DNA from: Massospora cicadina
Lineage: Eukaryota > Entomophthoromycota > Entomophthoromycetes > Entomophthorales > Entomophthoraceae
Assembly (NCBI GenBank): GCA_022478985.1
Contig: JAKSZP010014931.1
Coordinates: 1-64,000, forward strand
Length of the DNA stretch: 64,000 nt
Direction of reading: 5' to 3'
The notes beneath the pieces are model-generated. The model worked only from the letters and a program-made list of their open reading frames with translations, was not told where the DNA came from and made no database searches. Positions 3,129 through 57,802 of the stretch are shown here, in pieces. Both the position numbers and the translations under genes were made by a program. How positions within the stretch are numbered: the stretch's first letter is position 1; each line of letters opens with the position of its first letter.

Positions 3129-3232
3129 TTAAACAGAACTCATTTACTTTCCTGTCATTGTGGTGGCAAGCAAAAGAGGTGCCAGAAGAAGTTGTGTTTC
3201 CAAAGTGGTATAACCATACTGCAACACTCTTG

Positions 3233-19100: not shown

Positions 19101-19399
19101 ATCCAATCAAAGGAAGAACCATCCAAGAACCACCGATGAAAAAGGATGCTGCCAAAGAACGTGAATCTGGTCCAAGTAGAAGATCAGACAAAAAGACATG
19201 TAGATGAATAGCCAAATGCACTGACTCTGAAACCTTATGGAAGCAGTGGCAAAAAGTTAAAAAAGGAAATTCTATCCGCCCCAGCTCACGCAGCCTCCCG
19301 TTACACAAGGAAGGAAATAGCAGAACTTTCCAAAGCTCAGAGAACATTAAATTATCTTTAAAGATACCCACTCCATATCTGCTACTCAACACAGTGAGC

Positions 19400-24480: not shown

Positions 24481-24579
24481 GATGGCAGAATGCAAATTTC
24501 TTTCACTAAAGCTTACTAGGATGATGACCATGGAGAACCTGGCCAGCCTGAAACAAAACCAGACCTGATCCAGAATCTG

Positions 24580-26700: not shown

Positions 26701-27165
26701 GGCTACTGCTATCTGGTAAGCATCAGCAACTGGATATACACCCTTCTTAAGACCTCTTATTTGCTAAGAAAATTAGTAATCAGCTTATCTAACTTTGAGC
26801 CTTCCTATAACATTATTTTATATGGGTCATACACTCAGCAATTATGGCCAATAATTGAGCCTCAAGAGCCCCCATTACATAGTAATGATGCACAAGATAC
26901 TTGGATTTTCTTTACCAGTTCAAATAGATCTCTAAATTTTTGTGAAAAATAACCAGATGCTTTCAAGCCTCAAAATTTTCTTTTGCACCTGTATCACTCA
27001 TCAAACGCAATGAATCCACATTTATACTGAAGATTAAATGGCGTGTAAGAAAGCTGTCATTTAAACCATGGCTAGCAGAGACAATTGCTGACCAGGAATG
27101 GTTGGTGATGCTACCCTACTAGCGCGCCTGTTTCCAGTTTTTTATCTCATCATCCAAAATCTCCG

Positions 27166-27183
27166 TTTCTTTTATCCCTCTTT
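27166..27183 (+). repeat. Target-site duplication, left copy
   Basis: TTTCTTTTATCCCTCTTT. The partner is TTTCTTCTATCCCTCTTT at 33251-33268, with one transition. The exact right edge is ambiguous because it abuts the inserted LINE's T-run (A-tail on the minus strand). Confidence 0.85.
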
Positions 27184-27250
27184 TTTTAGTACTAGATGGT
27201 CCCAACCCAAGGGGGGATTCATCGATGTTTATTGAATTACGCCTGGGCTC

Positions 27251-30200
27251 CTAAGAGCCTGAGGCGAGGGAAGGGGAGGGAGGAGGCATCGAGAAAGGGA
27301 GGGGGGTTTGCGCGCCAGAGCCGTGCTGCAGTGACAACTGAGCGGGGAGGGAAGGCGACATAGTGCAGACCTTCAGGGCCATCTCAAAGTGTACCTGAAA
27401 GTGGGTGATCATGTGTGGAAGGGTCCACACCTGCTGGTCAAAGGCAGCACGAAGGAAGGAGTTATGGATGGTCCAGATGGCTGTGGCATAGGCGAGGACA
27501 CGGAGGGGTCGGTGGCAACCAGGCAATGTCTGCTCAAACATGAGTTCTTGCACAAGGTGTCCAGACCAGGGCTGAGCATGGAGGAGCGCGCGGGCCTTTG
27601 GCCAAAATGCGGCGACACCTGGACAGGTGAAAAAATGATGGAGGTGGGAGTCAATAGGCTCCACACAGCGGGGGCAGCTTCGGTGCTGAAAGGTAGGGCC
27701 AGTCCAGTCCCCTGTCCTGTATGAACAGTGGAGCACCCTCCATAAGGTGTTGGACACCTTTGCTGACAGGATAGGGTGATAGACGTCCTTCCACAATTCC
27801 TTAAGGTCAAATCTCACGGAGGGAGGGAGGAGCTCAAGTAGTCTTGGGCGGATGGGAGGACGATCTTGGGGGTTGAGGCGAGTTGTGACAACTTGTCCAT
27901 TGTGCACAATTGCATGGCGACGTGGGCTGAGGCCAGGGCCTTCCCTTATGTATGGGAAGGCATGGTGGATCCGCGCGCCTACTCGTTTCAGGGCAAGGAG
28001 AGCCTGGTTCCAGTAGGGGGATGAGGATGGTTTTAGGCGATGGCCTGGGTGGTTTGTGAGCCACTCCCCTAATGAGGTCAGAGATGCTCTAGGAAGACCC
28101 AGAGCTGCTGACACTGACTGGCGGAGGGCGGGCGCCCATTGGGGCATGGGGGTCGCGTCCCAGCAGACAATCGGCCATAGGAACTTCAGGAAGATTGTGG
28201 TGGCATGGGATCGCGTGTCCAGAAGCCCTAGGCCCCTTCATTGCAGGGTCGGGCAATGGTTGAGAGGGCCATTGGTGGATGGTTTGAGCCCCAGATCCAA
28301 CAGCGGAGGAGTACATTGAGCCGCGTATAAAAGGCATCTGTGAATGGGCAGACGTGCGCTAGGAACCAGACTTTGGAGAGGAGGAACACATTGGCCATCA
28401 GAGCTCGACCCTGGGGGTGATGTGCCGCTGGTTCCAGCTGGCAATCCTGGAGTTAACTGCTGCGAGGAGCAAGTCCTCATTGGCTTTTAGCGCAACTCCT
28501 TGTTGGTTGGTGAGAACGCCCAGGTGACGGAAGATACCGCGCTCAGGTTCAATACCAAATGGTGGGGGGAAGGTGGGGGAGCCGACCTGTATAACTGTTG
28601 TCTTGGAGGTGTTGACCATGGCGTTGGACGCCTTGGTGTACCTCTCAATGGTCACAGCAGCGAGGGCAACATCCCCAGGGCAGCCAAATGCAATGGCAGT
28701 GTCATCTGCAAATGCCATGGTGCGTGTGGGGGCTTTACCTGGGACCAGAATCCCTGTTAGCTTGTCCTGTAAGGAGGTCAAGAGGGGGTCAAGGGTGATG
28801 TTAAAAAGGATAGGGCTCAGGGGGTCCCCTTGCCGGAGACCTTGTCCAACTGGTACTGCCACTGTAAAACCCATTGGCGCCAGGACTCTGGTGTGGAGCT
28901 GGTCATAGAGCGCTGATATCCAGTGCCTAGCTGCGGGTGGGAGATGGAAGCGGGCCAGGGAAGCATCAATATACTTCCAGGCTACCCGATCATATGCTTT
29001 CTCCATATCCAGGAGAGCCACAAAGCCATTCACCTTACGAGAGTTAGCAGTCAAAGTCACGTGAAGGTCATTATAGTTGTCCCATAACGACCTCCCCGGA
29101 ATAAAACCGTGCTGGGATGGGGAGAGGCGAGGTGACACCCATTTGGTGATGCGGTTGGCCAGAAGCTTCGTGAAGAGCTTGTGGTCTGTGTTGATCAACG
29201 CTATGGGGCGCCAGTTCGCCAGGTTCTCACGGTCTGACTTCTTGTGAATGAGGGTCGTGATTGAGCCTCTGGAGTCGGGGAGGACCTCGCCATTCACTAA
29301 GAGTGCAGCGAAGAGGTCGCGGAGGGTTCTGGCTGTCACTGCATGTTCCAGAAGGTACACCTCGAAGGGTATTCCATCTGGGCCTGGGGCTTTAGGCCGT
29401 GGGGATTTCAGAAGGGTTTCCATCACCTCCTGGATGGAAATAGGCGCCAGTAGAGCCTCATCAGCCCGTGGGTCAATGGGCGGCTCTGGAGCCCGCCACA
29501 GGAAGTCTTGGATGTCCGATGGGTCCACCTGGGTGGCATGGAAGAGGCTGGAGTAGAAGCGGTGTAGTTCCTGCGTGATTTCCTCCTTATCTGAAGTAGT
29601 TGTAGTTCCAATCTTCAGTGCAGTAATATCCTGCGCTGTTGACCGGGCTTTCTGTTTCTGAAAGAAGAAGCGGGTGGGGCGTTCCCATTGAGCATAGTAA
29701 CGAGATGTTGTAAAGTTTGCTTCCCGTTCTTCCTGCAGTGCGAGCACCAAGCGGAGTGCTTCCTGCGCCGCTTCCCAGTCTTCCAACCATCTTGGAGAGG
29801 GCGAAGGCTGGCAGTTTCGCTCTAGATGTCTGATTCTGGCTTCCGCCCTTTTGACTCTGGCGCGAGCTGCAGTCATCTGGGCTTTGGCACAGTTGTAAGC
29901 AATGCGGGTGATGCCCTCCTTGGTCACCGCCCATCTAGCCTTGTGGTCAAGCAGGTGGGGTGGGGGAGGTGAGAGTCTCCCGGATGGTCATAGACAGCTT
30001 CTCCTTAGTGAAGGGGTTGTTGAGAAGAGCTGGGGCAACCCTAGGCCAGAACCTACGCGACGGTCTAAGTGTGGTGGTGAGGACAACGGTGAGTGACCTG
30101 TGATCACTCAGATGGTTGTCACGAGAGATGGGAGAGGAGACTCGGCCAATTAGCAGGGGGCCAATCAGTGCCATATTTATGCGTGACGCTGACTGGAAAG

Positions 30201-30780
30201 CTCCTCCATCATACTGGATCCTAGTCATGCAACCTAGGCCAGACGCGGAGGGTGGAAGCGCATTTATAAAGCCACTCAGGCGAAGGAAATCCTGGAGGCG
30301 ATTTGATCCAGGGCGTTCCTTTGCTGCAGGGGGGTAAGAGTCACGGACGCGACTTATGGTTGTGTTGAAATCTCCTAAGAGGACTGTATTCCGTGGGAGA
30401 TTGAGTTGGAGGAGCTCTTCCAAGAGCCGATTTTGCTCCTGACTTGCATTAGACAGGTAGATGCTTGCAGCGAAGAAGGAGAAGTCAGGAGTGGTGAGTT
30501 TGGCCAGTATGAGGCGGCCACCTAGATATTGTGAAAAAGAATGGGTTTTAACCCGAGGATTCAAAACAATAAGGGCAGCATGGTTTGTCCAGAAGGAGTT
30601 GCCTCCAAACTGTTCATTCCATGCAGATTGTTCGTGGGGGAGGATATGGGGCTCCTGGACAGCAGCGATGTCAATTTGTGCTGACCTGAAGTTTTGGAGG
30701 AGGTGGGCTCTCCGCTTAAAGTCCCGCAACCCATTTGCATTGATGGATTGCAGGGCCAGGGTGCTGCCATGGGGACTCAT
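27251..30780 (-). CDS. LINE ORF2: AP endonuclease, reverse transcriptase, C-terminal zinc domain
   Basis: Starts MSPHGSTLALQSINANGLRD at 30780. EN motifs in order are SINANGL, AAVQEPH, GDFNTTISR and SDHRSL. After a shift in the G-runs at 29957-29966, RT follows with KAPGPDGIPFE, NWRPIALINTDHKL, FIPGRSLWDN, LDMEKAYDRV, GQGLRQGDPLSPILFN and the catalytic AFADDTAIAF. After shifts at 28413-28417 and 28233-28236 come a linker and CPRCVEPIDSHLHHFFTC, the C-terminal CCHC domain. No RNase H is seen. It nicks DNA and primes reverse transcription. The three breaks are single-base and lie in runs; apart from these the frame has no other nonsense codon. Confidence 0.93.
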
Positions 30781-33162
30781 AGCTGTTCCCCTCCATGTCC
30801 TGGGGGTTGCCAGCGCTTAAACCTGCTGCTGTGAGGCGGCTAGTTTTGAGTCCTTTAGCTTGACTATTAGCTGCAATCCGTGAGGAGCGTCGAGGGTTCT
30901 GAGGGGAAGGAGAGGGTGGGGGGGCGGAGGACCCAGTAAGCCAGCCTAGGATGCTGCCCCCGCTCCGTTGCAGGGGAAGGACCTGAGGGTGCTCAATGGT
31001 GACCTCCGCGGTGTCCCCATTTGATGAGTCTGAGTCCATATTCACTTCCTCCAACACTGCAAAGGATCCGCGCGAAATGGACTGTGGGGTTGGGGTAGGA
31101 CTCTTTGAGGTGGCACTTCTACCGCAGGCCGCGGGTTGCCAGTCCATGCTGGTGGGCATAGCTCCATTGGGAGCTGAGGGTTGATGCGATAAATCGCTGG
31201 TGGAGGTTGGTGGGGGTGCCGCGGAGCCCTGAGTGGGGTGGCTGACGAGGGGCACCCTGTGGGAGATGCCTTGCGTTTGGTGAGAGAGGGAGTTGACTCT
31301 GGGAGATTGGAGGGGGTGCCCATTGGAAGGGGGGCATGAGCGCGAAGGTATCCCATACCAATAGTGGGGTTAGCTGTTTTAACTGCTAGGTGTAAGGCCT
31401 CAGGGGACAGGTCTTTAACGGGAACCCATTGTGTGGGTTGTGGAATTGCTGCTGCAGCTACGTGGGATCATTTTTGGCCTGGTTTAGGCCCCTGGGTGGT
31501 GGCTAAGAGGGCTTGTTTTCGAGCTGTGCAGCCACTATACAAGTGTCCAAGGGCGTTACACCATGAACACCGGGGGCGCGCCTGATCAGGGTCGACAAAA
31601 AAGATCTCAGGGCATGCCCCAACTACTGCCACACGAGGAATAACCTCAATGTTGCGGGATACAGTGGGGGAGGGGATGAATGACGCCCTAGCAGTGCGAG
31701 CTCTTTGAGTGGGAGCATAGTAAGAGGGGACGCTAAAGTCCACTGAAAGAACAGACCCAAACTCCATTAAACCACGATGGAGTGCCAGTTTAAGAGACTC
31801 AAGATCAACAGTTGTTGGTAGGTTGGTAAAAGTAACCCACGAAATTTTCTCCAGGTGAGAGCGTGTGTGGGAGATGCAAAGAGATCCGCGTGGAATAATG
31901 ACCTGGAGGGTGGCAGCATGGTCAGCAAGGGCAGCTTCAGTGAAGCCCACATCGATGTAGTGGCCCTCCACTGATTCATGGATGGTGGTGTTAATTGGGA
32001 ATGTCTCCGCAATCGCTGAAAAGTATGAGAAGTAATCCTCTGTATAGAATTCAACAGGGTTATGCCCATAATAAAGCCAAATTGTGTGGGAGAGGGTTAA
32101 GCGAGGTAGAGCTTTTTGCGCTCTAGTTTCGGCCCATTTCTTCTTAACATCAGCAATAAATGCCACTTCACGGGGATCAGCTTTGGGTAGCGTTGGTGCC
32201 AGAGGTTTTTGCCACGCCCCAGTGGCTCCTTTGGTACGTTTGTGTTTGCTTTGGGCTGCAATTGCGGGTTGAGTGTGAGCTGATGGTTTGGACAAGTTTG
32301 CAGAGTTCCCTTGTTGCTGGAATGTTACAGCAGTTGCTGGCGTCATATTAAATTGAGGGGCGGTTTGTTGGGCCTCGCTAAATTGGGGAGGCCCATCCAG
32401 ATTGGAATTAACTCCAGCCAGTTGGAAGGAGGGAGATGTTTCATCACCATCCCAATCTATTTGGGTAAATTCAGCCCGAGTATTTGCTGTGATTTTGTGG
32501 GCAAAACTCACTGGCTGATTGGTGAATTGGTCGTTTTCAGCATATGGAGATAAAGTGCTGACTTGAGAAATGCCGATTATGGGGTTTAAATGGGACGGGT
32601 GAGATTGGAACTGGTGTGAAGTTCCAAAATTCGAACCATTTGAATCCTCATTGGGAAGAGTAGATTGTCCCAATTTGGTGCTTAGTGAACCAGAATGTGC
32701 GGCTAATCCAACCTTACATCTGAGGATTTGGGGGCCAGGTAGCTGGGTTTCGCCCCTCATGGAGGGAGCCAGAAACACGGCGTCAGCAATAATAGATGGG
32801 GCTGAATTAGCTGACACAATGGGTGAGGTGAATGCCTGGATGGGCTGAGTTGCATTCAACTGAGCAGACGCCATTAAAACAGCGTGGGTGATGGCCTCCT
32901 TGGTTGGAGGGGGCCCAGTGGGTTGGTGGGAGGCAGCGCACACAGAGCTGTTAGGCGTGCAGGTTGCAGAAGTGCGATCAGGTGAACTGGCACTAGTTGG
33001 AGTAGCTCCAGGTTGGGGGGTGGTGCCTGCTTTCATGGCTGCTGCTTGAGAGCGGGTGATTCTGGTTGACCCTGAGGTGGGTAACTGAGGGTTGCTTCGT
33101 TTGGGGGTGGTGCTGGCTCATTTAGCATAGCCTGCGGGTTCTTTTGTGGGGTTTCTCGCCAT
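30716..33162 (-). CDS. LINE ORF1 (RNA-binding protein with CCHC knuckle), two TGA codons
   Basis: The minus-strand ATG at 33162-33160 opens a frame interrupted after 14 codons by TGA (33120-33118). A long open part follows to TGA at 31470-31468, then an open extension to about 31300. There a one-base shift leads into the frame ending at 30716, which overlaps the ORF2 start by 65 bp. Features are a Pro/Ser/Gln-rich N-terminus, a central folded region (about 32130-31700) resembling the RRM-like part of other LINE ORF1s, then CSWCNALGHLYSGC, an intact C-X2-C-X4-H-X4-C knuckle. The last part is acidic then basic. Both TGAs could be C-to-T changes from CGA. Confidence 0.8.
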
Positions 33163-33250
33163 ATTTGCTAATAGTTTTTGTAAATCTCTTTAGTGGAGCT
33201 AAATTTCAGGCTGAATTGATTTTTGAAAAGTGATGCTTAGCAGAAAGAGA

Positions 33251-33268
33251 TTTCTTCTATCCCTCTTT
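33251..33268 (+). repeat. Target-site duplication, right copy
   Basis: TTTCTTCTATCCCTCTTT, the partner of 27166-27183. It marks the 5' end of the inserted minus-strand LINE. Confidence 0.85.
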
Positions 33269-33319
33269 ATTAATTTATAATTTAATTTTTTAATAAAGGT
33301 ATGGAGTTATAAAAAAATT

Positions 33320-36049: not shown

Positions 36050-36890
36050 CTAGTAGAATATGCATGCTTTGCTATAGCATTTATAACTTACCAAATGATT
36101 TTAAATTATTTTAGTTTTTATATTGGTAGATAGCCATCAATAAGTTCAGAAACTATAAACCCTATCAAATATTCTAACCTTCAACCATTTAGCCAAAATC
36201 AATTAAGCCTGCTAAATTAACCAAATCATCAATCACTTACCCAAAACTATTGAGCCTATCAAATCAACTAAAAATAAATCACCACTCAGCAAAAACCAAT
36301 TGTTGTACTTATAAAATAGCAAAAATAGACACTATTAAAAACTCATGAAACTATCAAATTAAATAAATATGAAAATGCTCAACCAAATTGCTATATGTAA
36401 ATACCGTTAGAAACATATGTGATTTAGATCTTATTTAGAAATGGTATTAAAATCTATTGATCTTATTAAAAATAGCACTTTATCATTCACAAACTTTATA
36501 AAGTACTTGTGCTATGTTTGGTGATTCTTGGTTATTTGCTCATGAGATAATGTATCATATATATATATAAACAAAGGGTGGTTAGCCAAGCGGGTAAAAC
36601 TGCTTCCACCCCTAGTGCAGGTTTTGAGTTCGAAACCTAAACTGGCTAGAAAAATTCTCGGTGTGGTATATTTGTCCCGAGGTCGACCCACCTCGAATGC
36701 TTTTTTTATATATATAAATAAACAGAATGATACTTTTGTAAAGAAAGTTAGGCTAATTCTTGTTGATATCCAGATTAACACATATTTGTTTGTGGGCTTA
36801 AAGTTTTTTATCTGATTCTTCTAATCAATTCTTTTTTATATTTGTAGATGGTTATTAATAAAATTAAAAAATCAAGTTATGTTGAATCAA
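36050..36890 (-). mobile_element. Minus-strand Helitron 3' portion
   Basis: On the minus strand the terminus reads AGCAAAGCATGCATATTCTA followed by CTAG and T (plus-strand ACTAG at 36049-36053). That is the classical Helitron 3' end. The body up to about 36815 matches 48750-49590 in inverted orientation. A SINE sits inside at 36573-36708. No coding sequence is present. Confidence 0.7.
36573..36708 (+). mobile_element. tRNA-headed SINE (SINE-a)
   Basis: The Pol III A box TAGCCAAGCGGG (36583-36594) matches TRGYNNARNNGG perfectly. The B box AGTTCGAAACC (36627-36637) has one mismatch. A 3' module follows containing GTCCCGAGGTCGACCCACCT, also found at the end of the SINE at 63022. Flanks share TATATATATAAA, consistent with a target duplication. 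The inverted Helitron copy at 48750-49045 lacks the insert, giving an empty site. It is about 136 bp. Confidence 0.8.
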
Positions 36891-36909
36891 TCTATATATA
36901 TGAAAATGA

Positions 36910-37022
36910 ATGTCTGTGTGTATAACCATCTAGTACTAAAAAAAATGTCTGTGTGTATGAACATCGATGAATCCCCCCTTGGGTTGGGACCATCTAGTAC
37001 TAAAAAAAATGTCTGTGTGTAT
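36910..37022 (+). repeat. Two minute LINE-tail insertions in one target
   Basis: ATGTCTGTGTGTAT occurs three times, at 36910-36923, 36945-36958 and 37009-37022. Between copies 1 and 2 lie 21 bp (AACCATCTAGTACTAAAAAAA split as tail plus A-run). Between copies 2 and 3 lie about 50 bp ending in the same tail. Both inserts equal the 3' end of the LINE at 27184-33250 (complement of 27184-27232). The Helitron copy at 46060 has no such inserts. Confidence 0.85.
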
Positions 37023-37449
37023 GTATGTATGTCCCAAATGCATTCCTATACCATTCATCCAATTGTGATGAAACTTTAGGGAGAAGTTGTGTGCATGCCT
37101 GAGAAGGCTTATAAATTTTAAAAAAATATTATTTTAATAGTAAAATAAAAAGTTTTTATATGTAATAAGTGAAAATTCTATATATACTTTGATGGTATTT
37201 GTTATATTATCACAGCTGAGCAGTTTGATATTCAGCTGACTTGATATTTTAAATGATTTTGTTAAGTGGTTAGTGGTCATTTGGCTAATTAGTAAGTTAA
37301 TTTAAATCAAGGCTTTGAATCAAAAGTCCAATTGATTAAAAAAATACCTCCTCTAGCATAATTGGCTGCACAAGTATTCACAGATGGGGGCTGGAATAGT
37401 GTCACAGTAAGGGACTGGCGCCAGCGTAGCTTGGTTATGCTGGAGGTCC

Positions 37450-38950
37450 TTTAAAAATACCTCCACCCAACATGTGGCCCAGAATCTATCCTTAAGTGGT
37501 ACTGACTGGGGTTCTTGCCATCAGAAGCCCTAGAGTGGAAGAGCTTTGAGATTGGAGCACAAATGGCTAAAAGTATCAGCTGCCAAGGTATCAGCATCCA
37601 CCAGATTGAAGCATTCCTCAACTGGGGGTTCAGCCTCAACAAATTGGTAAGTTGGATTTTGAAGGGAAAGACCCCCACCGAGTACCCAAACCAAGCGCGA
37701 AATCAAAATCCTACAGTGCCATGGCAGCACACACTGAAGACAACACCTGGAATGGAGCAGGGAGCCACATTGAGTACATCCATCAGTTGATCAGTGGGGG
37801 CTTTACAGACCGCCAGGCACCAAAATCATACCTAAAAGATGCTATCTGAATCCACCTGCAGCTAGTAGAGGAGGAGGAATGGTCCAACCTGTTAATGTCA
37901 AATCATCAGGAACCTTACAAGTCCTAGCCAGAGGGGACTTTGATCACCACTGAGTACCCAAATGGGGCTATATAGATATAGCAATCCCAGGAAAATTGGA
38001 CCGCAAGAAACTCCTCAAAATCAGCATCAAATACAAGGGAATTTATCTGCAAATGGAACCAACCAGATACATCAACCAAACTGCAAGGTGGGTAACCTTT
38101 TAGAATCTCCCCACCAATCATTAACAGGAGTGGGTGCATGAAGCAATCTGTACTGGATTGTCATACTATGGGGAAGTATGAGAATTTTGGCAAGCTGGTG
38201 GCAACTACATCATGAAGTGCCTCCACCCTCAGACAGTGGAAGCGCTGTATGAACTGGCATCCTGGATGAAACTGAACAAAATTGCTCTACCCAGATCATC
38301 TGCCTTCCCAGCCTCAATAGGGTAGTATACATCAAACAGGAGGATGCCAAACAAGTGTGCCAGTTCTGCTACCAGACTGGCCACACAATAGCTCAATGCC
38401 ACCATCATAAAGGTAAAACTACATGGGAATATGAATATGACCCCTCGGGGGAATCACCAAGGTGTGTACCAAGACTTTCCTCCACCCAAAATCCAGAGAA
38501 TGGATCCCACACAACTTAATGGAGGTAGCGGATATGAAACGCCAGCAACAAGAATTGGACCTGGCACATAGAGAAGCGTGGGAACAGGAAACATTAAAGT
38601 TTCACAAAGTGGATGATGAACTGTTTATAAATATGAACCCTGAATCTTACACAATGGATGAGGGAACCACCCCAACCAACAGAGAAATGTCCAACCCAAG
38701 CAGAATGGACAGTCTGCAAGGAGGAAAGATGGCAGAAGGTTAACCTGAAAAAATCTCCCAATCAAGGGCAGATACAGGAAGCCAGCAAATCCAAATTGAA
38801 GCCCAACAAGATGAAAGTGAATACTAAATCAAATCAGAAGTCATTGGCAAATAAACCCAAGGTGACAAGTGAAAAATCAGCAGGAGCAATGAAATCAACA
38901 AAATTGGCTGGACAATCACCAACTAAAAATTGAGTTCTGCCATTAAATTG
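37450..38950 (+). pseudogene. LINE ORF1 remnant with CCHC knuckle
   Basis: Fragments in several frames lead to CQFCYQTGHTIAQC (about 38360-38400), an intact C-X2-C-X4-H-X4-C knuckle. A Lys/Pro-rich tail follows to the stop near 38932. The EN frame begins about 260 bp later. The role is RNA binding in the LINE particle. The 5' 80 bp from 37368 to 37450 are untranslated and show nothing else. Confidence 0.65.
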
Positions 38951-39192
38951 AATGAAGGGGTGTGAATCTGACCGATGGTTGAGGGAGAATCTGCCACTCT
39001 GCCATCAGGGGACAAGGGGCACCTGGACCTGATCATAAAACTATCCACATTATTCATTGACAGGGAGATGGGGATGGTGACCAAAAATAAACCATTGACG
39101 CCACCATCATTGACCAACCAGACCTCAGTATGGGACTCAATCCACAACCCAGACAACGCTAAACCTCATACCCATGGGTCAGGAAGCCAGAA

Positions 39193-42100
39193 ATGAGGAT
39201 AGCAACTACAAATGCTCAGGGGATGGTGAACATACGAGCAAGGAGGAGGAAAATGCACCACAAAAAAACTAATAATAATATTGACCTATTTTTATTTCTG
39301 AAACACAAGCTGGTAACCAATAGAAAATGGTGCCAAGCTCAAACCATAATGCAAAAAACTATCCGTGGTCCCACCAGATAGGCTACCAAGCCCTATGGAT
39401 GAACCACATGGTGATAGTCACAATGGACAAGAAAATAGACCTGGAATTTGTGAAAGAAACTCACGCTAGTAGAATCTTGATAGCAATAGCTACAAACAGA
39501 GAAACTGGCAGGAGCATACAAGTGGTAGCAGTCTATGCCCCACCAAAGATCCACAAAAACCATATTTTTTGGGAATTTTTAGCGGAAGTGCCATCTAAAG
39601 TGACATCTGTAAAAGCAGGTGACCTGAACTGTTGGATGAATGCGAGTCAGGATACATACCTGATGAGAGAACGCCCCAACAGTAAAGCCAACGAGATGCT
39701 CAACTACCTAGTTAAATTGGGGATGTGCCTAACAATTGACAAAGAGGATGATGACCTGGCCAACCTAAAGTGATGGTCATATGACGCCGCTGGATCCCCA
39801 CTGTCAGGATCACATTTAGACTATATCCTAGTGTCATCAGATCTTAAGCTGATGACATCCAACAATGAGGTTAGCATAAATGATGAAAGCAACCACATGG
39901 TTGTCCAGGTGGATATCAACCTTGATGAACCCCCAAGGAACTGCAAGTGGCAACTGGCACCAGCCACTCTGAGGGACGGGGATTGGCGCTGAAAGGTTGA
40001 CGCTGGACTGGATTGACTGGTAGCATATCTGGACAACCACCCGGAGTTAGACCTGCTAGAACAATGGACTCAGATCAAAGTGAAAATGAAACATGATAGT
40101 ATGAAGTTCAAAAAAGTGACCTCCTACAAGTGAACTGCCGCCATGAAACAACTGAAGTCTGAATTAGAAAGGCTGAGGCTCACCTGACGGGACAGTGAAG
40201 ACTGGTGGAGTGAGTACCAAACAACACACAAAAAGTATTGGGCCATAATGATGAAGCAAGACTCAGAGAGATGGACCAATGCAACTTACCGATATTAGAG
40301 CCTAGCAGAGATGATGACCAAAGAGGGCCTGAAACACCTCAAGGAAATCCAAACTAAGGCTAGAGTGTGGGAAGTGGAGACAGCGGAAGGGGAAGTATTA
40401 ACAGACCCCAAAACAATCAAGCATGAGGTCAAGCTTTTTTACAGTGATCTCTTCTAACAATGAGAAATGAGCGTATTGGTGACAAAAACCCTTATTGACC
40501 TGGCCAAGCCAGCACTGGGGGCTGTACGCTGGAAGATGTCACCAAGCTATCTTCCAAAATCTCTATCAATGAAGTTAAGAGGGCGCTAAAGGAGTCACCA
40601 AGAATGAAGGTACCAGGCCCCAACAATATGTTTGCAGAAATATACAACATATTCCAAGAACGCATCACGCTGGAACTCAAAGCCCTCTTTAGCCACTGTT
40701 TACAAAATGGCCAGCAAATTCCGGGAGGCCAAGAGACCCAAATTGTACTTCTGTACAAAAAGGGCCTCAGATGCCAACTTTAGAACTGGCGCCTGATTGC
40801 ACTATCAAACACCAATTATAAACTGCTCATGCACATACTATCTAATTGACTGATGGCAGCAGCACCGCACATGCTCCATAGTGCCCAGCATGGCTTTGTC
40901 AAAGGCTGTAGTATATGGGACAGCATTGGTTCAGTCCAGAGCGTACTCCAGGATATGAGGGACAATGAACAGGGGTACCTTATGTTCCTTGACATGAAAA
41001 AGGCATACAACTGAGTAGCGTGGTCATTCCTTCATGAGGAACTAAAGGCAGTCAGTATCCCTGACACGTTTTGAGCATGGATAATGACGCTGTACTTAGG
41101 CCTGGTAACAAAGGTAATTGTCACAGATGGAGTAACCAACGAAATCCCTGTCAGGCAAGGTCTCCGCCAAGGTGACCCTATGTCACCAAAACTCTTCAAC
41201 TTTGCAGCCAACATTCTACTGGTGGCAGCAGACGCAAAGCTCTGGGAGTTAGTCCACCCTAACCAAATGCCACTGAAGATGCTAGTATTCGCTGATGAAA
41301 TGGTAGTAGGAATAAGCTCACTGACTGACCTCCAGGGTGCCAAGGACCTCTTAAACCTCTTTCAGCTAGCATCAAACACAAAAATCAACTTGGCAAAAAC
41401 CTAGTGATGAGGGTTGGCAACCTGAGCTTCAGCCCACCAATTGACACAACACCGATTATGAACTCCCAGACAGTCTGATACCTCAGTATACTCTTCAATG
41501 ACAAGGGACCAGAGGTACTGGAGACTGAACAGGAAGTATTGTCAAGATTATTGATCTGAATGGCATGCTGGAAAAGTGCCAGACTATGTCTTAAGGAGAA
41601 AGTGCAGGCAATAAATGTCTTTATCTTCTCAAAGTTGTGGTATGTTGCTCATGTGCTGCCAACGAGCCCAAACTTAGAGAGGAAAATCAGGTCAATTCTC
41701 CAAACCTTCCTGTGGTTCAAGGCAAAGGTGGCGCCAATACCACTGGAAGCCCCGTTGAAACCAAAGAACAAAGGAGGCATGGGCCTCCTAGACTTTGAAT
41801 CTCATGCCTGGCATATATGTGTCATGGAAGCGGCTGATAAGAATTAGACTGGGCTCCCAGTCAGGGTGTATGAGCACCCAGTGGAGAGCCCAGAATGCCA
41901 AGGGCACAGTGGTCCATGCAACTAGAAGAAGGGGAGATCTATTGGGGATGTGAGAAAAATAAATGTTTATTAATGTACTGAAAGACCCCAAGGCAAACTA
42001 GATGGTTGCAATGGGGCAACCGCAAGTCTTGCAGGGGCAACCCCCAAGGATGGGAGAGGCAGGGAGGATGACAACTCCTCCAGGGTTTGTGGTTGCTGGC

Positions 42101-44560
42101 CTTCAGGTTTGAGTAGGTGAGTCTGTGCGCCAGTGAGGGGCGGCACAGGAGGCACCACATGAGCAGGGGTGCTGTCAGAGAGGAAAATGGGCCTGCGACA
42201 AGCATTAGGACTGAGCCCCCTTAGTGAGGTGCTCCGGAGCCCTCAGGTGGGTGGAATTAGCGGCGGATGAGCCAGGTGTGGGGGCTGAACTTGCAGCCAT
42301 CAGGGTGGGGGCGCCCAGAGGCTGCTCCAATAGGGGAGCAGCCTCAGAAATCCCAGCGGTGAAGCAAATGGACGGGTTTGCATCAGATGTGTATGCAAAA
42401 ATGGACAGAGAATTGACTCCATCATCAAGAGCAAGGCAGTTTGCAGCGGATATGATCCACCGCCACATGGCGGGGTTGAGCAATCAGATGACCTATTTGG
42501 CAATCATTGGGATGATTATTTGGGTGGTGGCATGCTTTGCCAGATCAATCGGCGGAATTTTGTAAAAAAAAAGTAAATGGGTGGCGTCCGCGGCAAGGCA
42601 TTTGGGGTATTCAGGTTTTATTTTTAGTGCAAAGCATGGAAAGAATAGAGAATGAACTGACAACTGCACCTCAGCAGGGCAGTTGCTTTAAGTATTGGGA
42701 GAATTGCATAGTGGGGATGTTGAGGGATTGGGTGATTGGGGATAGATGATGGGATTTGGTTGGCTAATGGGTGGGGGAGTGGAGGGATGCCCAAAATCTT
42801 GGCAAAAATCAAAAAAACTTTTGCAGATTTTTCTAAATTTTTGGGGCTAGACCAGGTCAATAGTACCAATCTGAGCCTTGACCATTCGAATCAGGCTGTA
42901 CACATGGTTCAGATTTTCTGGACTCATCCTGGGGGTCTGTGGCCTTGGTGTTCGGTCATCCACAACCTGGTCCAAACTCTCAATCTGATTGTTTATGCAA
43001 TCTGAACTTCCCAGATCTGTTCCAGGGGTAGGGGCAACTGATGAGTCACTTTAAACCTGTTTCAAGACCCAAATTGAGTTCTGATCTGATTTTCAAACCT
43101 GGCAAGTCCAGACCAGCTCCATTAGCCCAAAATTTGCAGACTGGGCTCTGATACTAGCACCAGCCATTTCCTCAAAATTTTGGTATGTTTTCCCTGGTGA
43201 GTGAGGGATCCCAGGGGCTTACCCATGGCCCCTGGCCTGCATAATCTCCTGGCAGGTCCCCTCTATTAATATTACCAGGGTTGAGGAGGGGGAGGGAAGA
43301 GAACTGGTTATCTTTAGGAGGAAGGGCAGTCACCCAGCGCTCATCAACCATATGCACCAGGTTGCTCAACTGTGACAGGGGGTCCACTTGGGCATTTGGG
43401 CCCCTTTTTGTCCAAAAGAGATGCTGCTCCCTATCCAGTTGTAGGGGCTGGTCCTCAGGACTTACAATATGGGGAAAGTCATTCCTGAAGCTAACACAGA
43501 TGCACATGCGTTGCCCAACTCTAGCATGGGGTGTGAACTGGGCAAGAGCCCAAGGCCTCCAAGAGCTGGTCTCTCCTGTTTGATACATGAATGGATGGCA
43601 AACCACCCATGGACAACCTCCTGAAAAGGTACTCCACACTACTGGTGACTATGCAATCAGGCTGTGTTCCAGGGTGGATAGTCATTTGAGCGATTGGGCT
43701 GAGAAGCTGACCAAATTCTAAGGGATGTTGAAGCACGTAATCTTGCAATTATTTCTGCAACAAACTGGGAGGAGCGTAACTGAATCACTGATAAATACAC
43801 AACCAAGTCAATCAGAATAAGGTACAAATTGATGCTGATAGAATATGGGGATCCGCTCCTAGAATTGGGATGCAATCCGCCCACCCATCCATAAATCCTA
43901 AATGACTGGACTACTGAAGGCCATGACAACAACTACCTGACAAAGGAGTTGATTTTGGGCCTTAACTCCCACTTGGTAACAGCCAAACAGCATTTGGTAA
44001 CCTGGCGGATCCTAAATTGGGCATTCAAATTGGGAAAGCATAGTGGGCCAGACTACCAGCACAAAGAATGCCCCATATGCACTGAACCAGAAACAGATAT
44101 AGCCCACCGTTACTATGAATGTGCCATGTTCAAAAAATACTGGTCCACAATGTGCTACATCCTATCAGGCAAACAATCACCACCATGAATACATCCATTG
44201 CAGGATCTTTTCTTCATAAAAACCCTGAAAATGGCTCTGATCCAACTACAAGCCTTCATTTACCATTATTGTGTATGGGTAATTCACTGTGCACTCATCG
44301 CCAAGGTTTTGAGCAATAAGCGCCCCCACCATAAAGGTTTGGTATTGAAGACCGTTCAGATTATTTCCAATCAGCTCCGTCAGATCTCAAAATTCTCACG
44401 CATAATCCCCAGGTGTTATAAAGCCACACGTTTGGCTTTCCCCACTGGATTACTCATCGCATGTAATGAGGCAACTAATTGACTGAGAATTGAATGGCCT
44501 GTAAGCCCGCCAATGCTAGAACTGTGGCTAGCAATAGCAATTGCTGATCAGCAATGGTCA
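39193..44560 (+). pseudogene. LINE ORF2 remnant: EN, RT, C-terminal CCHC (split by a solo LTR)
   Basis: EN starts MRIATTNAQGMVN at 39193 and continues with VVAVYAPPKIHKNH, AGDLNCW (GDFN box with F-to-L) and DYILVSSDLK. RT shows the VRQGLRQGDPMSPKLFN block and LVFADEMVVGIS, where the second catalytic Asp of FADD has become Glu. After the solo LTR the frame resumes at KSFLKLTQMHMRC and ends with CPICTEPETDIAHRYYEC near 44070-44120. The D-to-E change and stops mean it is inactive. Confidence 0.85.
41820..43466 (-). repeat. Solo LTR, 1.65 kb, perfect ATATG target duplication
   Basis: On the minus strand it starts TGTAAGTCCTGAGGACC (43466) and ends CTTCCATGACA (41820). ATATG flanks both sides (41815-41819 and 43467-43471). 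Removing the LTR and one ATATG restores the LINE frame as AWHIWGKSFL, matching HWIWAKAFL in the sister LINE near 26005. Start and family are those of the LTR following the old chromovirus at 11857, although the interior is closer to 13147-14598. No internal gag or pol is seen. Confidence 0.85.
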
Positions 44561-44685
44561 GAGGTGCTAGAACTCTAGTGGCCCAAATCCCCAGTCCCTT
44601 TTTACCCTTGGCTGAATCACCTGTATTCCTCCCTCCTCTTACTTTCCCTTAAATTTATTTTAATAAGGCATGGAGTTTTAAAAAA

Positions 44686-44770
44686 TCTAACATAATTGGC
44701 TCAGCTTTTGGCTCTAAACTTCAACTCTATAAAAGATCAGTTGTTCAAATCCTGGCATAATAACTTTTTA
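44686..44770 (+). other. tRNA-like module in the first Helitron
   Basis: Follows the LINE directly: TCTAACATAATTGGCTCAGC then a B-box-like GTTGTTCAAATCCTGG about 50 bp on. It is the sister of 46657-46731. Here A- and B-box bases have decayed by transitions. It is not a functional tRNA gene (no proper stems). Confidence 0.6.
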
Positions 44771-44794
44771 TACACTTTTTTTAAACTCACTGTC

Positions 44795-45918
44795 AATTCT
44801 GTCTGTCTGTAATCAAATATCACAAGCTCTATTTCAGACTCTTATCTTACACTAAAAGATTTGAGAGGAAATGAACAGCTCTTTGGTGGCACACTCATTT
44901 TATTGTCTGGTGATTTTTGACAAATTCTACCAGATATACCATATTCAACACCTGCTGATGAACTTAATGCATGTCTTGAATCATCAGTTTTATGGCGGCA
45001 CATACAGAAATTAACTTTAAAGACCAATATGTGTGTACATCTATAACATGATGTATCTGCTGAACATTTGCAAAACAATTGTTGGATATTGGAAATGGGA
45101 AAATGCAATCAATGAATCCACACAATGTATCACATTGCCAACAAACTTCTGTAAAATCACAGCAACCACAGATAAATTGATTCACAAAGTTTTCCCAAAT
45201 ATTGCACAGAATTACAAAAATCATCAGTGGCTAAGTTTCTATGCTATACTAGCAGCCAAAAACAATGATGTCAATGCCATCAATTTCAGTATTCAAAATA
45301 AAATATCAGGTGAAGTGACAACATATAAGTCCATTGATGCTGTAATGAATCAAGATAAAGTTGTCAATTATCCAACTGAATTCTTGAATTCACTTGATTT
45401 TCCAGGTATGCTGGCATGTTTTAACATTGAAAATTGGCATGCCTATCATTCTTCTCTAAAACATCAATCCTCCACAGCTTTGCAATGATACCAGGCTTTC
45501 AGTGAAAAAGATGATGAACAATATCATTGAAGCTACAATATTAAATGGAAAATTTAAAGGAGAAGATGTACTGTTGCCACGCATCCCAATGATTCCAACA
45601 GATATGCCATTTGAATTCAGACATTTGCAGTTTCCAGTGCAACTCGCATTTGCAATGACCATCAACAAAGCACAGGGACAATTGCTACAAGTGTGTGGAC
45701 TAAATTTAAAAAATCCATGCTTCTCACATGGACAGCTGTATGTGGCCTGCTCACATGTCAGAAAACCTTCTGATTTATTCATGTATGCACCAGATGGAAA
45801 AAAAAAATATTGTGTATCCAAAAGCGCTTCAATAAACAGAATTAAAACACAAACACTTTCTATCTTTGAGTGGCATTGCAATGCATGTCGGGTACTCATA
45901 CTAATATTATCACATTAA
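44795..45918 (+). pseudogene. Helitron Pif1 helicase, C-terminal half
   Basis: Readable in order: LRGNEQLFGGTLILLSGDF (with a stop at the R of GDFRQ, TGA for CGA), ILPDIPYSTPADELNACLES, SVLWRHIQKLTL, NDVNAINFSIQNKISGE, VVNYPTEFLNSLDFPGM, PFEFRHLQFPVQLAFAMTIN, KAQGQLLQVCGLNL and CFSHGQLYVACSHVRKP. This order and wording are those of the Pif1-type helicase end of Helitron RepHel proteins. Walker A and the Rep domain are absent. At least three frame changes are present. The helicase would unwind donor DNA during rolling-circle transposition. Confidence 0.92.
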
Positions 45919-46032
45919 TTTGAAAACCATGCAAACAAAGTTGTGGGCAACAGCTATTTATTTATAAGAAACCTACTTTAATCGAACTTTATTAAATTAA
46001 ACTAACATTTCATTATGTACAACATGAAACTC

Positions 46033-46059
46033 CGTTGCAAAGCAAGGGTATTCTGCAAG
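46033..46059 (+). other. Helitron 3' terminus (hairpin plus CAAG) abutting the next 5' end
   Basis: The hairpin TTGC-AAA-GCAA is followed by GGGTATTCTG and CAAG, a one-base variant of CTAG. The next base starts TCTATATATATAAAAATG of the following element with no spacer. Confidence 0.8.
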
Positions 46060-46437
46060 TCTATATATATAAAAATGAATATCTTTCTGTGTATGTATGT
46101 ATGTCCTGAATGCATTCCTATATCATTCATCCAATTGTGATGAAACTTTGGTGAGTTGTTGTGTGCATGTCTGAGAAGTTATATGAATTTTAAAAAATAT
46201 TATTTTAGTAGTAAAGTAAAAAGATTTATATGTAAGAAGTGAAAATCCTATATATACTTCGATGGTATTCGCTATATTGTTACAGCTGAGCAGTTTAAAT
46301 TTGTTTGATTTGATATTTTATATGGTTTTGTTTAGTGGTTAGTGGTCATTTGGCTAATTAGTAAGTTAATTTAAATCAAGGCTTTGAATCAAAAGTCCAA
46401 TTGATTTTAAAAATACCTCCTCTAGCATAATCAGCTC

Positions 46438-46656
46438 ACTGGGTGTAGTTGCGCACACCTGTAACCACAAGCTAAGGTGGGGTAAAAATACTGTAACAGG
46501 TTCAAAACCTGTTCTGGCAAGGATGAATATAATTTCCTCCGTCCCCTCTTATCATTAATCAATTAATTGATAATATGGAGTTATAAAGGAAAATTTGGGT
46601 GGTTTTCATGTAGGGTGGTTCCTGCTACTGCTGAATCTTTTTAGAAAGAATAAGAA
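46438..46656 (+). mobile_element. SINE-c with LINE family B tail
   Basis: Flanked by TCTAGCATAATCAGCT and TCTAGCATAATCGGCT (46421-46436, 46657-46672). The head has a Pol III-like A box TGGGTGTAGTTG (46440-46451) and a perfect B box GGTTCAAAACC (46499-46509). The tail CCTCCGTCCCCTCTTATC ... AATATGGAGTTATAAAGG equals the LINE family B tail. About 65 further bases of unknown nature lie between tail and duplication. The head also reads like Alu/7SL (GCGCACACCTGTAA), probably by chance. Confidence 0.78.
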
Positions 46657-46731
46657 TCTAGCATAATCGGCTCAGCTTTTGGCTCTAAACTTCAACTCTA
46701 TAAAAGGTCAGTTGTTCGAATCCTGGTGTAA
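46657..46731 (+). other. tRNA-like module in the second Helitron, retroposon target
   Basis: The A box TAGCATAATCGG matches TRGYNNARNNGG at all fixed positions. The B box is TGTTCGAATCC, one mismatch to GGTTCRANNCC, about 50 bp downstream. Stems are too poor for a real tRNA. It ends directly at the next Helitron terminus (46732). Confidence 0.65.
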
Positions 46732-54330: not shown

Positions 54331-55140
54331 TGTTGAATTTTGGCTTTATTCTAATGGCTGGTTCTTCTCTGGTGGTAGGGTAAAGTTTCAGGCGTCTATT
54401 ATATGGGGACAATAGATCAGACAGTGACTATAAGTTAAGATATAAATCCTTGGTAGCACTCAAATCATATACTCTGTCATTTACTTGGATGATGGTATGC
54501 CGCTCTGATCTTACTGATCCCAAGTAAATAATGACTAATACAAAATAGAGTACTAAACGCAAAAAGTTTATAAGTTAAATTATAAACAAGTCATAGTAGT
54601 TGAATATTTTTATTGGCATCAACTTGAAGGTAATTTATAGGGTTTGATGTTCACCACATCTTACCCATAACGTCTCATTTTCAATGGCACTTGGCCAAAG
54701 GAAAATGAAAAGCATTTGTAAGAGCGTCTACAAATACTTCAACCCAGGGCATCATGCTCAGCCTCAGGGTCAGTGTAAACATTGTCATCATTTTCAAGAT
54801 GGCGTTTTGGATGCATCTGCAAATAGCTGAACTGATTCTCTTCCACATGTAATTAGCACATACCAAGGTGATTCATATCACTAATTAGTAATTAATTTGA
54901 TCAAAACTTGACCAATATTAAAAACTAATTTTGACATAGACCAACAAAGCCCACATGCCCAAGTTATTATTTTGAAACTTAATTTTAAGTCTGACTTAAC
55001 CAACAAAGCCCTCGAGCCCATGTCATCATAGTCAAATATAATTAAGTGAAATCACTAGGCCACAAATTCAAGTTCAGATATAATTAGGATATTTTTGGTT
55101 TATAATAACCAACAATTTAGATCCAGTCAACCATTTAACA
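54331..55140 (-). repeat. 3' LTR of the gag-only element
   Basis: Begins TGTTGAATTTTGGCTTTATT and ends CAACCATTTAACA (plus sense). It is nearly identical to 57803-58614, with small differences throughout (for example CAGGCG/TGGGCA near the start). Confidence 0.92.
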
Positions 55141-55160
55141 CTTCCCCCTCCTTGACTGGA
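55141..55160 (-). other. Polypurine tract of the gag-only element
   Basis: Plus-strand CTTCCCCCTCCTTGACT reads AGTCAAGGAGGGGGAAG on the minus strand and abuts the 3' LTR. The following 400 bp (55160-55580) are non-coding and T-rich. Confidence 0.85.
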
Positions 55161-55590
55161 TAAAAGTGGAGGTATTCTTTTTCTCTTGGTCACATCATCC
55201 TATTTTTCTCAAACTTCAGAATAGGATGCTATGTTAAAAGCCTTTGGCTCTGGATAACAGTTAGTTCAGGCATGCTGCCTTTGTTTCCTAGGTTTTATTC
55301 CTGCTGCAGCTCCAGCAACTTTAGCAAACTTAAACTAGCCCCCTTGGCTTCAATTTCAATATTTTCCCCCTCCCAAAAAAGGGATATTAGCTTTAGTGGT
55401 GATAAGGCTTTAAAATTCATTAATTAAATTTATTTTTCTTGATTGTTTTTTCCCATTTTTATAAGGTTTATAAGGTTTATCATTTTTTTATTTTTTGTTT
55501 ATATTTATATTTATTTTTTATTTTTTAATTTTTTTTTCTTTTTTAATAAGAATCAATAGAGCTTACTAAGTGAATATGGGAAGAATCTAA

Positions 55591-57801
55591 CTAATTAAGA
55601 GTATGCTTCAGGGTATTTTCAATAATAGGACATTCATTGATGAATGTGGCAATTGGCATAGCTATATTCACCCCCTTCAAGCTTGGGGTACCTGATGCAT
55701 TACTCAGCCCCTCAGCTTGAGTATTCTCAAACATCTTTTGCACACATGGTTTAGCAACTACTTCAGAGGCTTCAGGTATGACATCCTTACTCTGAGAGTG
55801 AGTTACCACATGTACATTTGTAAAATCTCATTCAGTGATAAAATAGAATTTGTATAGCTTAAAATTGAGGCCCTGTGGCCCATGTTTTTGTGTCAGTCAG
55901 GTGGAACTGGTGTTTTTGGCACAATAAATCATCCCGCATCTATTGTGCTTGTTTTTTACCCTCCAACTGTGCGTTATTTGGAAGGACTACATTAACACCA
56001 TGCTGACGGCATCAGGAAGCATAGTGTCCTTTACAATTGCAGTTATAGCAAGTAAGATCCTTTAACAGATGTGAGGCCCTTGTATTTGAGTTTTGTTCAT
56101 TTTTAAAGGTGGATTACTGTCAATATTGTTTTCAAAGGGCTTTCCAGCATAGGCAGCAGGTCCTGATCTGTATCTCATAAACTTAGATTTTCTGGTTGAC
56201 ATCTGTTCTGGACCTCCAAATTCATGAAGCACAGCCTCCTTGACTTCGGCATATGTTGGATTTTTGTTAATGTGAGGCATAATCAACTCAATGCTCCACT
56301 CATCCAAGCAGTTAATCATAGTGGCTGCTTTGTTATGGTCGCTGGCCCCATGCATGGCCATTTCAAAGCATTTGACAAATGTGGTAATACTTCCATTCTT
56401 GTCAAAGGCAGGCAGGTTTGCTGGTTTATAATTATTGCTTCCCCATTCCTGGTTATCACGATTACTTCTTTGTTGACTAGAGCCAGGCGTACTAGGGCGT
56501 TGGGGCATTGTATCCCAGTTTGAGGTGTTAGGGTTGGCCAAAGCAACCATATTGCTAGGCAGTTGTTGACGTGGCCCAGCGTCCATTTTGGTAGCTATTT
56601 CTGAAGCTTTGTCCTCATAATATTCAGAAGAATTTCCAGTCAAGTGGTTTGTAGCACACTGACAACGCCCGTCATCCAGAGCTCAAATTTGCTTGTTGAT
56701 TTCATTTTCCCAATTGACATGATTTCAGTTTTTTAACTTTAATTTTTGCAATTTCCTCATTCAGGCTAGTAGCTTGTAGTTGCAAGGTGGAAATCACTTG
56801 GTCCTTTTCTTTTATTGCCTTCTTGCACTGGTTCAATTCTCCATGGAGATTATTGTTTGACTCATTAATAGCATTAACATCATCATTGAGATTATTGATC
56901 TGTAGATTAAGATGATCAATAGAGTCTTGATTTTTCTCATTTTTTCGCCCGTTGGTCCTCAAATTGTGTTTGCCAGTAATTGATTTTTCTGGTGTATTCA
57001 TCCTTCATCTGCAAAATTTGGGCGCTCAAACATCAATACTGGTCACAAAATTCATTGTTATGGTTTAACTGCACCTCTTGGGCTTTGTGATTAAGCCTCA
57101 TGAACTCTGAAGCGTTAATAGAAGTCTGAGTGATATTGCTGACCCAAGATTTGGTGACTCCTCTTTCCTCTAAGAAATTTTCAAAGATGGGATGCAATCT
57201 GTCATTTAGCTCTTGTGCTAATTCTGCTACCTGGTCATTAGCCCAAGTGGCTAAGTTGTAATTTGCCTCCAAACTAGAATGGACCTCAGTGAAGTTGGCT
57301 TCCAATCGCTCATTTAAAATTTGGCCCTGCCTGGCTGGAGTTGTGAGAGAAGTTCACCAACTCAGTAATGGCTGCATGATGGTGGGCGATTGTCATCTGA
57401 GAATTTCTAGAGGTGGGATGTACAAATTCAATTAAGTATTGGGCAATATTCTCTATCCCAATTAAATTGTTTCAGATCTGAGCTACACTTAATTGATGAT
57501 GAGCAAGATATCTCATCCACAACACATCTTGCTGTCATTGGTGGTAAAAAGGATTGCTACTATTGTCCGTGGGCCCTTGTCCTATTTGATACCCTCTTAA
57601 CAACTGCTGCTCAAGACGTTCCAGCTCTTCAGGTGAAATGGGTTCATTGGGATAGGTAATAATGGGTACATCCTCCCAATTAATCTGGGACACAGTCATT
57701 TCAGTATTCCCATTGGGCCCAGTGATGGTTCTGAATAATTGATTGGGATTGCTCCCCTGCTCAGCGCGGTCACCATCTGCAGTCCCAGCCATGAGCGCCA
57801 C
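55591..57801 (-). pseudogene. Gag of the gag-only element, frame-broken
   Basis: Starts MALMAGTADGDRAEQG at 57801, overlapping the primer-binding site. The order along the protein is an acidic N-terminus, two coiled-coil stretches (57305-57033 and 57001-56702, e.g. INNLNDDVNAINESNNN), a Ser/Gln/Arg-rich linker, and a capsid-like part (FVKCFEMAMHGASDHNKAAT, PTYAEVKEAVLHEFGGPEQM). The knuckle CYNCNCKGHYAS then precedes a TGA before the last Cys (about 56035-56000). Pieces lie in different frames. Gag would assemble the particle for this non-autonomous element. Confidence 0.8.
57785..57801 (-). other. Primer-binding site of the gag-only element
   Basis: Minus strand TGGCGCTCATGGCTGGG starts two bases inside the LTR end (57803). 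TGG complements the CCA of a tRNA 3' end. The tRNA identity was not determined. Confidence 0.8.
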
Positions 57802-57802
57802 T

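Follow-up and report, generated by a model that had tools for sequence, protein, structure and literature searches.

The 64-kb stretch of Massospora cicadina DNA analysed here (contig JAKSZP010014931.1, positions 1 to 64,000; hereafter the window) contains two Helitron copies that are interrupted at the identical nucleotide, copy 1 by a long interspersed nuclear element (LINE A, 37368-44685) and copy 2 by a 220-bp short interspersed nuclear element (SINE, 46437-46656), both on the plus strand. The two Helitrons align at 89.6% to the left of the site (37016-37362 versus 46088-46431) and at 93.3% to its right (44681-44755 versus 46652-46726), and both continue unbroken across it when the insert and one duplicate are removed. 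The 16-mer TCTAGCATAATCGGCT has exactly four matches in the window at up to two mismatches (37352, 44686, 46421 and 46657), where shuffled sequences give an expectation of 0.02. The duplication around LINE A is 16 bp long with one mismatch and that around the SINE is 16 to 18 bp with one mismatch, a CA being ambiguous; each covers an A-box-like motif. A sequence-only reading of the window had proposed an insertion of both elements at the same nucleotide with 16-base duplications, and this is correct to the base. Together with the genome-wide junctions described below, these duplications make it very probable that LINE A integrates at the A box of type-2 RNA polymerase III (Pol III) units, with a tRNA-like module as its main landing pad and the SINE sharing the site in part.

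Junctions of LINE A were sampled in the genome to which the window belongs (1.47 Gb in 16,968 contigs), taking the best 40 of 2376 candidates, window copy included, in a comparison with the terminal 306 bp of the LINE. Selection was by the LINE's 3' end alone, and 3' junctions were read for 35 of the 39 other copies; at the remaining four places (C72, C12810, C4662 and C5746) the match stops before the LINE's end. In all 35 cases a tRNA-type unit is hit, and the junction lies in its A box, in the place where that box is expected, or at most ~10 bp away. The unit is the window's module in 28 cases, another tRNA-like SINE (SINE2) in 3, the likely partner SINE in 1 and a tRNA or tRNA-like sequence in 3. 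Most module junctions (23/28) fall at one exact base, which precedes the A box by two bases and corresponds to tRNA nucleotide 6, and the other five are within 1-5 bases. One tRNA-type flank matches the Rfam tRNA model from nucleotide 6 (L131, 42.6 bits) and a second from nucleotide 7 (L121, 25.6 bits, short of the gathering score of 29), and the third (L141), with no Rfam match, is classed as tRNA-like by reading of its A and B boxes. Automatic labels had given 29 module, 4 SINE2, 1 SINE and 1 other; L131 (labelled module), L141 (SINE2) and L121 (other) were reclassed because their alignments start away from the junction or fail, and because L131 and L121 match the tRNA model. The junction in the partner SINE lies 7 bp from the SINE's 5' end, where an A box is expected, and LINE A flanks that could be read far enough show a B box. 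Five extra LINE-A-type tails were found in the module (L030, L062 and L101) and in the SINE (L012 and L088), in loci fetched for the module or SINE and so biased to such targets. LINE A is a target-specific LINE in that, among the best 40 of 2376 candidates, most copies lie in one defined target. The site specificity that the sequence-only reading had proposed is thus borne out by the flanks of other copies (35/35), in contrast to a control element, LINE D, for which 0/21 distinct tails begin at an A box in 296 kb of fetched loci. Because the module or the SINE had been the basis for choosing these control loci, A boxes are plentiful nearby.

LINE D lies on the minus strand of the window (27187-33250) and is fairly well preserved, with open frames of 549, 289, 529 and 328 amino acids. 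It is inserted in the 3' untranslated region of a further element, LINE B, with an 18-bp duplication, TTTCTTYTATCCCTCTTT (27166/33251), and two of its tails elsewhere (L037 and L046) have one site in common. LINE B occupies 14793-33317 on the plus strand, is ~40% identical to LINE A at the amino acid level in several stretches, has a related 3' tail (GGTATGGAGTTATAAAAAAA at 33298) and is found at 39 further genome places at 73-78% identity. Its single junction in the window, with TTGGACCAATTC as right flank, is neither an A box nor an A-box module.

In the target module, an A box and a B box are spaced as in a tRNA, and a run of T residues (44765-44769) comes after the B-box-like element of copy 1. 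The window contains three A+B pairs; across 100 shuffles the mean was 0.26 and the maximum 3. The description of the module as tRNA-like holds for its promoter boxes but not for the rest of a tRNA: ARAGORN at default settings and Rfam made no tRNA call, relaxed ARAGORN returned only intron-containing reverse or partial calls, and a tRNA gene was rejected. Unoccupied modules are abundant, with at least 839 genome copies (398 + 441) that have an unbroken site at no more than three mismatches; the reversed pattern has no match in the genome at the same threshold. These copies sit in Helitrons and other repeats. Among 30 fetched rows of unoccupied copies (L033-L062, in which L052 repeats the site of L053), most share the left flank of this Helitron family, and L041 and L051 are flanked otherwise. 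A repeat with other flanks carries the SINE-occupied module at L018, L020, L021 and L028. The idea of a Helitron-borne bait, put forward from the sequence, is right in that the module resides in Helitrons, but too narrow, since the target also occurs in tRNA genes, in further SINEs of tRNA-like type and in repeats that are flanked differently.

The hosts themselves are degraded Helitrons. The interval 45460-45915 in copy 1 corresponds to the C-terminal part of a Helitron helicase and matches the Helraiser transposase (98.5 bits, E = 3.3e-27), and a 5' TC and the A|T insertion context are present by reading. No Rep domain turned up in the deleted Helitron copies of the window, in which no search aimed at Rep was made. 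A second Helitron 5' end (TCTATATATATAAAAGC-like) directly follows the module in 18/30 rows of L033-L062, as it does after copy 2 at 46731, which suggests that a composite Helitron bearing two ends of the 5' type has multiplied in the genome. Near the start of copy 1 (36925-37006) stand two 5'-truncated LINE D tails of 20 and 49 bp in succession, separated by the same 15-mer, AATGTCTGTGTGTAT, in three copies; they represent either serial insertion at the same site or a tandem duplication.

LINE A carries an open reading frame 1 (ORF1) with a zinc knuckle and an ORF2 in which an apurinic/apyrimidinic (AP)-like endonuclease stands upstream of the reverse transcriptase (Table 1). The reverse transcriptase scores 107.0 bits against LINE-1 ORF2 and 63.5 against R2 in a comparison among solved structures only. 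LINE A's own endonuclease region has no Pfam endonuclease match at E = 0.1, and its SDH motif reads SNH; the endonuclease columns Y, DxN, D and H are common to a relative, P0001, which matches Exo_endo_phos families. All 35 further copies that were read have an A-rich 3' end. Judged from its domains, LINE A appears to belong to the L1 group of non-long terminal repeat (non-LTR) retrotransposons. The window copy is dead, with many stops and frameshifts, and the 7.3 kb at first given for it is right as a span but includes a later nested insertion of ~1.8 kb that divides ORF2.

Table 1. Features of the two interrupted Helitron copies and their inserts in the window.
Feature	Position	Strand	Details
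Helitron copy 1	36891-46058	+	5' end TCTATATATATG, degenerate 3' end ..GCAAAGCAAGGGTATTCTGCAAG, helicase remnants
LINE A left target site duplication	37352-37367	+	TCTAGCATAATTGGCT
Left duplicate of copy 1 A-box-like element	37354-37365	+	pattern match
LINE A	37368-44685	+	degenerate; ORF1 and ORF2, oligo(A) end
LINE A ORF1 zinc knuckle (CCHC)	38361-38411, approximate	+	CQFCYQTGHTIAQC
LINE A ORF2 AP-like endonuclease region and linker	39330-40455	+	YAP, GDLN, LDYIL and SNH retained
LINE A ORF2 reverse transcriptase	40556-41401	+	RVT_1, E = 1.7e-28
Later nested insertion splitting ORF2	41851-43660, approximate		LTR-like; relative at 13151-14579, minus strand
LINE A ORF2 C-terminal part	43706-44479	+	CCHC CPICTEPETDIAHRYYEC at ~44069-44122
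LINE A right target site duplication	44686-44701	+	TCTAACATAATTGGCT
Module A-box-like element, copy 1	44688-44699	+	TAACATAATTGG; direct reading
Module B-box-like element, copy 1	44743-44752	+	GTTCAAATCC
Helitron copy 2	46060-46730	+	next Helitron 5' end adjoins at 46731
SINE left target site duplication	46421-46436	+	TCTAGCATAATCAGCT
SINE	46437-46656	+	T-arm-like ACAGG-TTCAAAA-CCTGT with B box; LINE-tail-like segment ~46532-46590
SINE right target site duplication	46657-46672	+	TCTAGCATAATCGGCT
Module A box, copy 2	46659-46670	+	TAGCATAATCGG
Module B box, copy 2	46714-46723	+	GTTCGAATCC; 55 bp after A box

The insert in copy 2 has the hallmarks expected of a SINE, being short and dispersed, with a putative Pol III-type head and an internal LINE-like part. 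Its B box lies inside a perfect T-arm (ACAGG-TTCAAAA-CCTGT), and a stretch of ~60 bp with ATGGAGTTATAAA at its end is similar to the 3' ends of both LINE A and LINE B; the score is reached by 0/1000 shuffles for LINE B and 1/1000 for LINE A. The sequence-only reading had held that the LINE and the SINE share a 3' tail. The homology is real, with ATGGAGTTWTAAA at the LINE's 3' end, but in the SINE the motif stops 69 bp before the 3' end; as the whole 216-bp body recurs genome-wide, this is no simple shared terminal tail. A hairpin before the tail motif is suggestive at most, since shuffles reach the stem in 110/500 cases for LINE A, 16/500 for LINE B and 136/500 for the SINE, and the full tails fold no better than shuffles.

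Target choice by the SINE was scored on the best 40 of 1396 candidates, selected by SINE sequence only and including the window copy; loci L003-L032 and L063-L072, found with a module-containing query, were excluded from the specificity counts. By reading, 15/40 SINE sites are at tRNA-type A boxes: 7 in the module, 3 in SINE2, 2 in tRNA-Gly-like sequences, 1 in tRNA-Lys, 1 in another tRNA-like sequence and 1 in another copy of the SINE. A fixed A+B box score of at least 16 was reached by 12/40 SINE sites, 13/2411 control windows and 0/40 left flanks. The rebuilt empty site of one SINE (L102) is a tRNA-Lys(ttt) gene by ARAGORN, which found no tRNA in the other 43 rebuilt sequences (two of which repeat one place); the two tRNA-Gly-like sites (L080 and L098), where ARAGORN makes no call, are labelled by reading. 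Across 23 loci with Helitron flank and SINE, mean differences are 15.1% for the flanks and 7.6% for the SINEs. At least some SINE insertions at the module base appear to be independent, because the SINEs of L004, L005 and L008 are 5-7% apart in Helitrons that are 1-2% apart. The earlier proposal that the SINE uses the LINE's site is therefore upheld as repeated use, in part apparently independent, but as a preference only (12/40 by score, 15/40 by reading).

SINE2 (GGGTGGTTAGCCAAGCGGG..) is itself present in the window, at 36573-36705 in an AT repeat, and elsewhere in the genome its A-box region receives both LINE A and the SINE. LINE A was also seen inside copies of the likely partner SINE at L088, L012 and L125, within approximately the first 20 bp of the SINE.

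A mechanism consistent with these data can be outlined. LINE A, as an L1-group element with an AP endonuclease, would integrate by target-primed reverse transcription, as its endonuclease, oligo(A) end and staggered duplication suggest. The first nick would fall one or two bases before the A box (tRNA position 8), because the LINE's 3' end joins at approximately tRNA nucleotides 6-7 in the module and in two tRNA genes. A staggered second cut would then duplicate the 16 bp containing the A box, as seen in the window, and because this duplication includes the A box, the downstream unit would keep both its A box and its B box. LINE A would be served in this way by type-2 units of several kinds: tRNA genes, tRNA-like SINEs, the likely partner SINE and, as the chief landing pad, the tRNA-like module, of which Helitrons and other repeats carry hundreds of copies. 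The SINE would use the LINE A site in part of its insertions, probably via the same machinery. We think it somewhat more probable than its opposite that the LINE/SINE pair is addressed to the A box itself rather than to one gene, that it lives mainly on a module multiplied by Helitrons and other repeats, so that DNA transposons would supply fresh harmless sites, and that the LINE lands even in its own SINE.

Several observations weigh against this interpretation or narrow it. Duplications were read at the window insertions only, the genome-wide LINE A sample consisting of 3' junctions. In SINE2, two LINE A copies join 9 bp ahead of the A box and a third within the final two bases of that box, and the A box of the SINE is degenerate, with no match in an A-box pattern search of the window SINE, so neither junction position nor motif is absolute. 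A strict genome pattern placing the LINE A tail beside the classical tRNA A box, TRGCTYAGT, had no match; the exact tail is probably too rigid as a search pattern, because the observed tails vary. Two of the 21 control LINE D tails (L041 and L060) are found upstream of a tRNA-like unit, at a distance of some 20-30 bp. On the SINE side, 25/40 sites lack a recognised A box and look unrelated, and the LINE-like segment is internal and scores 36 against LINE B and 28 against LINE A. The correlation between SINE and Helitron distances (Mantel r = 0.38, P = 0.01) also suggests that some occupied modules were copied along with the host Helitron.

That correlation bears on another account of the window, in which a single old insertion was spread by Helitron transposition and the recurrent site reflects copied, already occupied Helitrons. 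Many loci do carry contiguous Helitron, SINE and module (the query contained the module), and the correlation of distances speaks for copying of this kind. It would not place different elements, a LINE and a SINE, at the same base, nor LINE A in tRNA genes, SINE2 and the SINE; the module is moreover occupied in repeats with different flanks, SINEs differ by 5-7% in three Helitrons only 1-2% apart, and at least 839 module copies are empty. The single-insertion model was rejected on these varied hosts and flanks, diverged SINEs and empty copies, and we regard it as very unlikely. Even less credible is a coincidence or shared hotspot, whereby two unrelated retroposons struck the same base of an AT-rich Helitron. 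Repeated use of one site can arise in other ways, as the two truncated LINE D tails at one position of copy 1 with their common 15-bp repeat illustrate, but junctions at A-box regions of different hosts in all 35 LINE A copies, against none of 21 for LINE D, refute chance for LINE A.

Two further accounts concern how the A box would be reached and by which enzyme. Pol III factors (TFIIIC/TFIIIB) bound to an occupied type-2 promoter may attract the LINE, as in Dictyostelium TRE5-A, which requires box B and whose ORF1 protein binds TFIIIB (available part of PMC5911963). Tethering of this kind is favoured by targets that vary widely yet carry a B box where flanks were read far enough, and the distance from junction to A box is fixed in two tRNA genes and the module. 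The tethered LINEs described in that part of PMC5911963, however, insert outside the tRNA coding sequence, whereas 23/28 module junctions here fall at one base inside the unit, and a junction at a fixed base favours direct reading of the DNA. We consider tethering a serious contender with somewhat less than even chances. The chances are about even that LINE A moves the SINE in part only and that its main helper is a different LINE without site specificity, such as LINE B or a relative: most SINE sites are not A-box-like by reading and the tail-like segment scores higher against LINE B, but the SINE is strongly enriched at the LINE A site. One LINE machinery serving its SINE, as the sequence-only reading had it, thus agrees with this enrichment, but LINE A as the partner is likely rather than demonstrated, because the tail homology is internal and its scores are closer to LINE B.

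The window also holds a chromodomain Gypsy element (2306-8271), in which integrase and chromodomain were found, with direct repeats of ~823 bp that are 97.2% alike (2306-3128 and 7449-8271). Direct repeats of ~810 bp, 94.8% alike, at 54331-58614 are probably the LTRs of another element. In viral and bacterial/archaeal collections, sequence searches returned no matches and a pattern search seven, none of them a relative; two matches in viral contigs were taken for chance. The named relatives of proteins from this genome are of mixed origin, with Planoprotostelium and Closterium among those in one comparison and Thalictrum and further plants, Rhizopus, Lichtheimia and Ambispora in a second.

With these observations, the few known routes of retrotransposons to Pol III genes would be joined by one that is intragenic and centred on the A box, and whose target site is itself multiplied within other repeats, Helitrons included. 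Hundreds of empty and filled sites let the evolution of a target-specific LINE be followed in a very large genome, and the range of targets, from tRNA genes to tRNA-like SINEs and modules, amounts to a natural mutagenesis that could separate recognition of DNA sequence from TFIIIC/TFIIIB tethering. In the open-access literature, we found neither an L1-group LINE reported to insert inside the A box nor any description of a tRNA-like target reservoir carried by transposons.

The present case departs from each of the systems compared in at least one feature. Tx1L of Xenopus, an L1/Tx1-group LINE with an AP endonuclease, inserts at one site within another transposon, Tx1D, and its target is a transposon-specific sequence; LINE A, by contrast, targets an A box common to tRNA genes and several repeats. 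The dictyostelid elements TRE5, TRE3, NLTR-A and NLTR-B are L1-clade LINEs that target tRNA genes, with insertions 2-6 bp upstream (NLTR-A), ~44-54 bp upstream (TRE5) or 40-150 bp downstream (TRE3) of the tRNA coding sequence, according to the available part of PMC5911963. The same source describes an AP endonuclease, reverse transcriptase, zinc finger (TRE) and association with tRNA genes, which LINE A resembles; unlike the TRE elements, which insert outside tRNA genes, LINE A has its junction at the A box, inside the unit (approximately tRNA nucleotides 6-7 in the module and two tRNA genes), and unlike the dictyostelid LINEs it mostly uses tRNA-like modules in repeats. NeSL-1_TV, LIN15_SM and LIN25_SM are sequence-specific non-LTR elements with tRNA-gene targets, which the portion of PMC4640811 available assigns to the restriction-like endonuclease lineage with one tRNA type each, whereas LINE A resembles L1 and accepts type-2 units of several kinds. 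The endonuclease of NeSL/LIN elements lies downstream of the reverse transcriptase and the AP-like endonuclease of LINE A upstream, which speaks against membership of that group. SINEs with L1-clade tails are few, as far as the accessible text of PMC3747384 indicates. R2 and R2/R1 SIDEs are non-autonomous and, by way of the 3' end of a site-specific LINE, occupy the same site as that LINE, but in the part of PMC3414825 available they are co-transcribed with rRNA and are not SINEs by the authors' definition, whereas a Pol III-type SINE appears to be involved here. The Dada elements also target tRNA genes at the A box, in several families at nucleotides 8-13 (PMC8869645); unlike LINE A, these are DNA transposons and not retrotransposons, with 6-nucleotide duplications (nucleotides 8-13).

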